A DNA stretch of 16,325 nucleotides. Origin: an uncultured Kangiella sp. (GTDB lineage: Bacteria; Pseudomonadota; Gammaproteobacteria; Enterobacterales; DSM-103792). The notes under the pieces were generated by a model. The model saw only the letters and a program-made list of their open reading frames with translations, made no database searches and was not told the origin of the DNA. Both the position numbers and the translations under genes were made by a program. Below, one piece after another: positions 5,969 through 6,018 of the stretch (position 1 is its first letter; each line of letters opens with the position of its first letter). The DNA lies in contig CAMLNB010000065.1 in assembly GCA_946481205.1 (NCBI GenBank), positions 1 through 16,325 of the forward strand, given 5' to 3'.

Positions 5969-5999
5969 AGTGTAAAACCTCAACCTAAGTTGAGGTCAA
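5969..5999 (-). promoter_or_regulatory. SoxR-activated promoter with 19-base spacer
   Basis: Read on the minus strand, TTGACC (-35, plus coordinates 5994-5999) and TACACT (-10, 5969-5974) are separated by 19 bases, and the dyad at 5978-5995 occupies the spacer. A spacer of 19-20 bases with a centred dyad is the hallmark of promoters activated by MerR-family proteins. Transcription would start near 5962 and serve the gene starting at 5916. Confidence 0.85.
5978..5995. promoter_or_regulatory. SoxR box (operator)
   Basis: The 18-base site CCTCAACCTAAGTTGAGG has perfect 7-base arms (CCTCAAC/GTTGAGG) around CTAA. It closely matches the known SoxR operator, CCTCAAGTTAACTTGAGG. It lies beside the soxR gene, the usual arrangement. 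It can serve both directions: activation leftwards, and occlusion of the soxR -35 rightwards. Confidence 0.88.
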
Positions 6000-6018
6000 G
6001 CAATGACCGTGGTAATAG
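5990..6018 (+). promoter_or_regulatory. Probable soxR promoter overlapping the SoxR box
   Basis: TTGAGG (5990-5995) and TAATAG (6013-6018) are separated by 17 bases, a standard sigma-70 layout. The -35 is the right arm of the SoxR box, so bound SoxR would be expected to limit its own transcription. The expected start site is near 6025. Confidence 0.55.

Follow-up and report, generated by a model that had tools for sequence, protein, structure and literature searches.

A predicted SoxR-controlled divergent promoter and its small orphan target in an uncultured Kangiella sp.

Known divergent soxR pairs and the new locus

The closest described systems are the divergent gene pairs mfsA-soxR of Stenotrophomonas maltophilia and soxS-soxR of Escherichia coli, both taken here from excerpts of PMC4411124. 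In S. maltophilia the two genes lie head to head. The spacer of the target promoter contains a single SoxR box, placed 7 bases ahead of the ATG of soxR and covering the mapped soxR start. Experiments in this species, as excerpted, showed that the single site serves both for activation of the target and for repression of soxR by its own product: in a soxR mutant the soxR level is about 15-fold over that of the wild type. There the target is an efflux pump of the MFS type. For E. coli these excerpts cite the same logic: a single box, CCTCAAGTTAACTTGAGG, and one SoxR serve for activation in one direction and for autorepression in the opposite one, and the target is the regulator SoxS. Spacers of 19–20 bases are typical of promoters of the MerR family, according to excerpts of PMC9909328.

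The DNA studied here, which we will call the window, is a stretch of 16,325 nucleotides from an uncultured Kangiella sp. It has a soxR gene and a gene of 120 amino acids placed head to head, with one box in the spacer of the promoter which faces the latter. The target differs from those described: it is an orphan, which matches neither the MFS pumps, as in S. maltophilia, nor any regulator family, as in E. coli. We propose that SoxR may act here as it does in S. maltophilia. A SoxR dimer would occupy the single box within the over-long 19-base spacer; its oxidised form would distort the DNA and switch on the leftward 120-aa gene. In either state the bound protein would also keep soxR low, by barring the polymerase from the soxR promoter which the box overlaps. 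We infer SoxR binding, induction and autorepression at this locus from the other species.

Our main reading, with a probability of about 0.85, is an ordinary SoxR-controlled divergent promoter which has a new small protein family as its target. What is new is probably the target, a family without a name; the switch is known, its wiring is ordinary, and the regulatory logic adds nothing new. Targets of SoxR form a natural list of the genes by which cells counter redox-active metabolites and drugs. When such a target has no family and stands under a box of textbook quality, it gives an inexpensive way into a new function, since SoxR already suggests the test condition. The interest of the locus is modest and would grow if the orphan proves to be a new redox-defence protein.

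The regulator, its box and the two promoters

By its sequence the gene on the right codes for a true SoxR. The open reading frame at 6037–6558 (+ strand, 173 aa from the first ATG) matches TIGR01950 as a whole protein with 221 bits (cut-off 116.9). It contains CIGCGCLSLKDC at residues 137–148, with the pattern CX2CXCX5C, which we take to be the [2Fe-2S] cluster motif of SoxR; the motif is aligned with that of E. coli SoxR 2zhg (E 7.7e-54, residues 27–170). Judged by eye, a start at 6058 (MAKRKS...) is likelier than the one at 6037, because a relative at 88% (P0005) begins with the matching MAK; another one at 99% (P0004) is listed with a longer start. A gene of the amidohydrolase family follows directly 3' of soxR on the + strand (6562–8031); read from its ATG at 6635, it seems by eye to begin with a signal peptide.

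The SoxR box of the window is real: CCTCAACCTAAGTTGAGG, at 5978–5995, agrees in 12/12 positions with CCTCAAN6TTGAGG. The second-best sites in the entire window score 9/12, and the expected number of exact sites in 16.3 kb is 0.0007. The identical 18-base box precedes soxR in Vreelandella venusta (L058). A script check of the minus strand found the -35 TTGACC at 5994–5999 (read 5999–5994) and, 19 bases away, the -10 TACACT at 5969–5974 (read 5974–5969). The region 5969–5999 has the form of a SoxR-activated promoter, with CCTCAAN6TTGAGG between a -35 and a -10 at a spacer of 19–20 bases. The initial annotation had described this dyad and this divergent promoter, and every letter, position and spacing agrees with its description.

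We compared the window with 80 SoxR loci (L001–L080) from genome_contigs, where 185 pattern matches gave 111 relatives and the best 80 were taken. They are the best among those sharing peptide words with the SoxR of the window and many come from one group, Halomonas/Vreelandella, so that the locus counts are not independent. A box of at least 9/12 is found upstream of soxR in 79/80 loci, and it is perfect (12) in 52. L023 is the sole locus of the 80 which lacks such a box (best 7/12); it was excluded from the promoter counts. The divergent -35 of the other 79 is TTGACC in 40, TTTACC in 38 and TTGACA in one. A divergent TAnnnT at spacer 19 is present in 77/79 loci, versus 0.7% of all positions across the 80 loci; among spacers of 5–34 the maximum lies at 19 (98% of 80 sites, the window counted in) and the runner-up, at spacer 6, reaches 34%. 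As the form with spacer 19 is so conserved across related soxR loci, the divergent promoter of the window is, as far as its sequence tells, a regular member of a highly conserved class. This agrees with the view of the initial annotation that the geometry is one activated by SoxR. Its claim that the leftward gene is redox-activated is also supported, as a prediction, by the box and by its placement in a 19-base spacer.

The 80 loci show two classes of box flank. Those with TTTACC often have a soxR leader of about 45–50 bases and mostly VOC targets; those with TTGACC often have the soxR ATG less than 30 bases from the box, and FMN reductase and other targets. The link between flank class and target family was judged by eye. 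The best-scoring -10 facing soxR also differs between the two classes. SoxR was not found in viral_contigs, nor at E <= 1e-20 in any of 31 genomes belonging to the same order as G192. The best relatives of the window proteins vary by gene: 63% in G192 and 57% in G159.

The promoter of soxR itself is less clear, with two uncertain candidates which both overlap the box and neither of which is strong. The initial annotation took the right arm of the box, TTGAGG, as the -35 of soxR, with TAATAG as its -10 at 17 bases (5990–6018, + strand; -35 at 5990–5995, -10 at 6013–6018). Letters and spacing are as it claimed, but the promoter is weak: it scores 4+3 = 7/12 and is beaten by TTGCCG-17-TAAAAC (5950–5978, + strand, -10 at 5973–5978), which scores 8/12 and would initiate transcription inside the box. 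On the + strand of the window, with spacers of 16–18, 1.6% of the positions score at least 7/12 and 0.26% reach 8. Four positions near the box reach at least 7/12, and TTGCCG-17-TAAAAC is the one which is better than the right-arm promoter. A stricter sigma-70 scan of 5500–6700 gave no promoter; it used only spacings of 16–18 and is blind to promoters of the SoxR type.

The right arm as the -35 of soxR, exactly as first annotated, is a doubtful choice. The 17-base geometry exists in the window, and among 85 offsets the right-arm -10 position is the best in the 38 loci of the TTTACC type (mean 7.24/12, left position 6.55). The window, however, belongs to the TTGACC type: in the 41 loci of this type the -10 to the left of the box is best, with a mean of 6.95 against 5.71 for the right-arm position. 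The left-position score is not independent, since TAAAAC partly mirrors the conserved divergent -10. Furthermore, an in-frame soxR ATG could be placed in 64 of the 79 box-bearing loci and in none of the other 15. In 26 of these 64, 24 of them of TTGACC type, it is less than 30 bases away from the box, too close for a right-arm promoter to fit. The mapped 5' end of soxR in S. maltophilia also speaks against the right arm: it falls within the box, which extends from -4 to +14 (PMC4411124, excerpts). The right-arm geometry appears the less likely of the two. By analogy with the described species, autorepression of soxR in the window is likely via either promoter, and self-limitation of soxR from a single site, also claimed at the outset, is upheld as a prediction.

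The orphan gene and its family

With 100 aa as the minimum, divergent open reading frames were called in 72/80 loci, and 71 of these 72 match a known Pfam family (E <= 1e-4). Glyoxalase/VOC proteins are the most frequent (34), followed by FMN reductases (17), ABC transporters (7) and MFS proteins (4). There are two cases each of HPP, metallo-beta-lactamase and muconolactone isomerase-like proteins (in L006 the MIase match is slightly below the Pfam cut-off, 26.0 vs 26.7 bits) and single cases of arylamine N-acetyltransferase, SnoaL and HAD hydrolase. The lone case without a family is L031, a 105-aa frame beside the weakest box counted (9/12). The remaining eight loci are outside this tally: one has no box and seven have no divergent frame of at least 100 aa nearby. 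In some of them a known gene may be frame-broken, as L020 and L024 have short frames which match those of L017 and L028. The soxR-VOC (34/72) and soxR-FMN reductase (17/72) pairs have the box, the 19-base spacer and the divergent layout in common with the window; their targets have Pfam families, whereas the target of the window has none.

The orphan gene lies at 5554–5916 on the minus strand and codes for 120 aa from its second ATG (5916); the open frame extends to 5940, which would give 128 aa. We place the start at 5916 because the window cluster P0001 and its relatives P0002 and P0003 all have 120 aa and the same start. A Shine-Dalgarno-like AAGGA, read from the sequence, is found 7 bases upstream of this ATG (5924–5928, minus strand). 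The codon score of the 128-aa frame is 0.245, which is low among the real genes of the window: ten known genes, on which the score was also trained, give 0.220–0.376, and pieces of them 360 bases long have values as low as 0.189. The value falls between the 95th (0.208) and the 99th (0.273) centile of wrong frames.

With such a score, and with just four sequences known, the window's own among them, one might think that the box serves only for autorepression of soxR, the leftward transcript and frame being incidental. This is very improbable. On the minus strand the box stands between a -35 and a -10 just as in 77/79 loci, and at such loci a divergent frame of known family is usual (71/72). The frame and its start are conserved in two close relatives at 75% and 72% identity, a distant relative retains the core, and AAGGA stands upstream of the start. 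We keep the reading of a real gene under the divergent promoter.

P0002 (75%) and P0003 (72%) are the two relatives found among 5.8 billion proteins. The search covered lengths of 0.55–1.75 times the query and required shared short words; a relative of 235 aa is outside its reach, so the size of the family is a lower bound. No relatives were found in genome_contigs or viral_contigs, nor in plasmids by tblastn, and tblastn of P0001–P0003 on the 80 soxR loci gave, among the matches listed, just values of E 0.48–0.64. Searches of whole genomes gave 0/31, 0/299 and 0/200 in three sets, and 1/247, 1/3 and 1/394 in three others; these sets overlap and the genome, G962, is the same each time.

Searches of Pfam, NCBIfam, PHROGs and PADLOC gave no significant family match; the two PHROGs matches, at E 0.065 and 0.12, are of 'unknown function'. 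In Pfam there is no match for the orphan of the window, P0001, P0003 or the relative in G962, and P0002 gave a single spectrin-repeat match at chance level (E 0.14). By Pfam the orphan thus matches none of the known SoxR-linked target families: VOC, FMN_red, MFS, ABC, SnoaL, MIase and others. This supports, as a prediction, the initial statement that the target is not soxS, a known pump or an oxygenase: it matches none of the families seen at such a position elsewhere. In the open papers of PubMed Central we found no orphan of such a kind beside soxR, a search which cannot prove its absence.

Solved structures gave nothing at E <= 10. AlphaFold2 models built from three sequences have a pLDDT of 57 (P0001) and 69.8 (P0002), and the model of the orphan is mixed alpha/beta: a helix followed by three strands, then a short helix and more strands. 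At E <= 0.001 the P0001 model has no structural match and the P0002 model has none in PDB or BFVD. The chains listed in the VIA second look are not above background, a result which excludes no family. Such a mixed fold, together with the occurrence of VOC, FMN reductase, MIase and SnoaL proteins at the same position elsewhere, would suit a highly diverged member of one of these families. We find this unlikely: neither the window protein nor the G962 relative has a Pfam match, and that of P0002 is at chance level. A thin profile of three sequences was also compared with profiles of three of these families, VOC, FMN reductase and MIase, and gave probabilities below 1%. A family of its own is the reading we retain.

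The orphan has three cysteines. A role as redox-active residues was considered and set aside: the two close relatives both retain C17 and C74, and the distant one has none of the three. The shared function of the family is therefore probably not based on thiol chemistry.

A distant relative and the possible function

The third relative is a 235-aa frame in G962 (L088:1429–2136), detected by a whole-genome profile search at E 2.2e-22. It has 45% identity with the orphan across 104 residues, and the blocks IQQxW, GDEF, LPxVLVFEK and VQHELN are common to all four sequences of the family. Its length is due to a C-terminal extension, in contrast with the 120 aa of the window orphan.

In G962 no protein reaches the SoxR cut-off (51.7 bits at best), which might reflect a gap in an incomplete genome, and the exact pattern CCTMAAN6TTKAGG is absent. 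The best box-like site within 3.3 kb around the relative is 8/12. The missing box says little, because G917, of the same family as G962, has a SoxR over the cut-off (177.6 bits) and also lacks the exact pattern. The missing SoxR weighs more than the missing box. Since the third relative sits in a genome in which no SoxR was found, the orphan family appears not to be tied to SoxR. The initial annotation named conservation of the box and the gene pair in related genomes as a check; at this relative, the one examined at the level of DNA, the genome shows neither the regulator nor the exact box. In G917 no relative of the orphan was found; as seen by eye, its locus L089 has just a poor box-like site before the SoxR gene.

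The surroundings of the orphan are also different. A comparison of the window with 20 kb around the G962 relative matched 1/13 window proteins, the orphan only. In G962 the relative lies 106 bases after a gene for a metallo-beta-lactamase-fold hydrolase, on the same strand, and the hydrolase gene faces an AefR-like TetR gene. In L100:7353–10132 the AefR-like TetR gene, the hydrolase gene and the orphan relative form a possible detoxification operon, in a genome without a detected SoxR.

The genes which occupy the same position in other loci suggest by analogy that the orphan may aid in the disposal of redox-cycling compounds or in resistance to them, as a small enzyme or a binding protein. We favour the inference of a small stress or detoxification protein which different regulators have recruited. 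A more specific version is tentative, with odds clearly below even: the orphan would found a new family acting against redox-cyclers, under SoxR here and possibly under TetR in G962, with a novel fold and chemistry.

Elsewhere, at 13008–16154, the window contains a frame of 1048 aa which by eye resembles a double hybrid sensor kinase with receiver domains.
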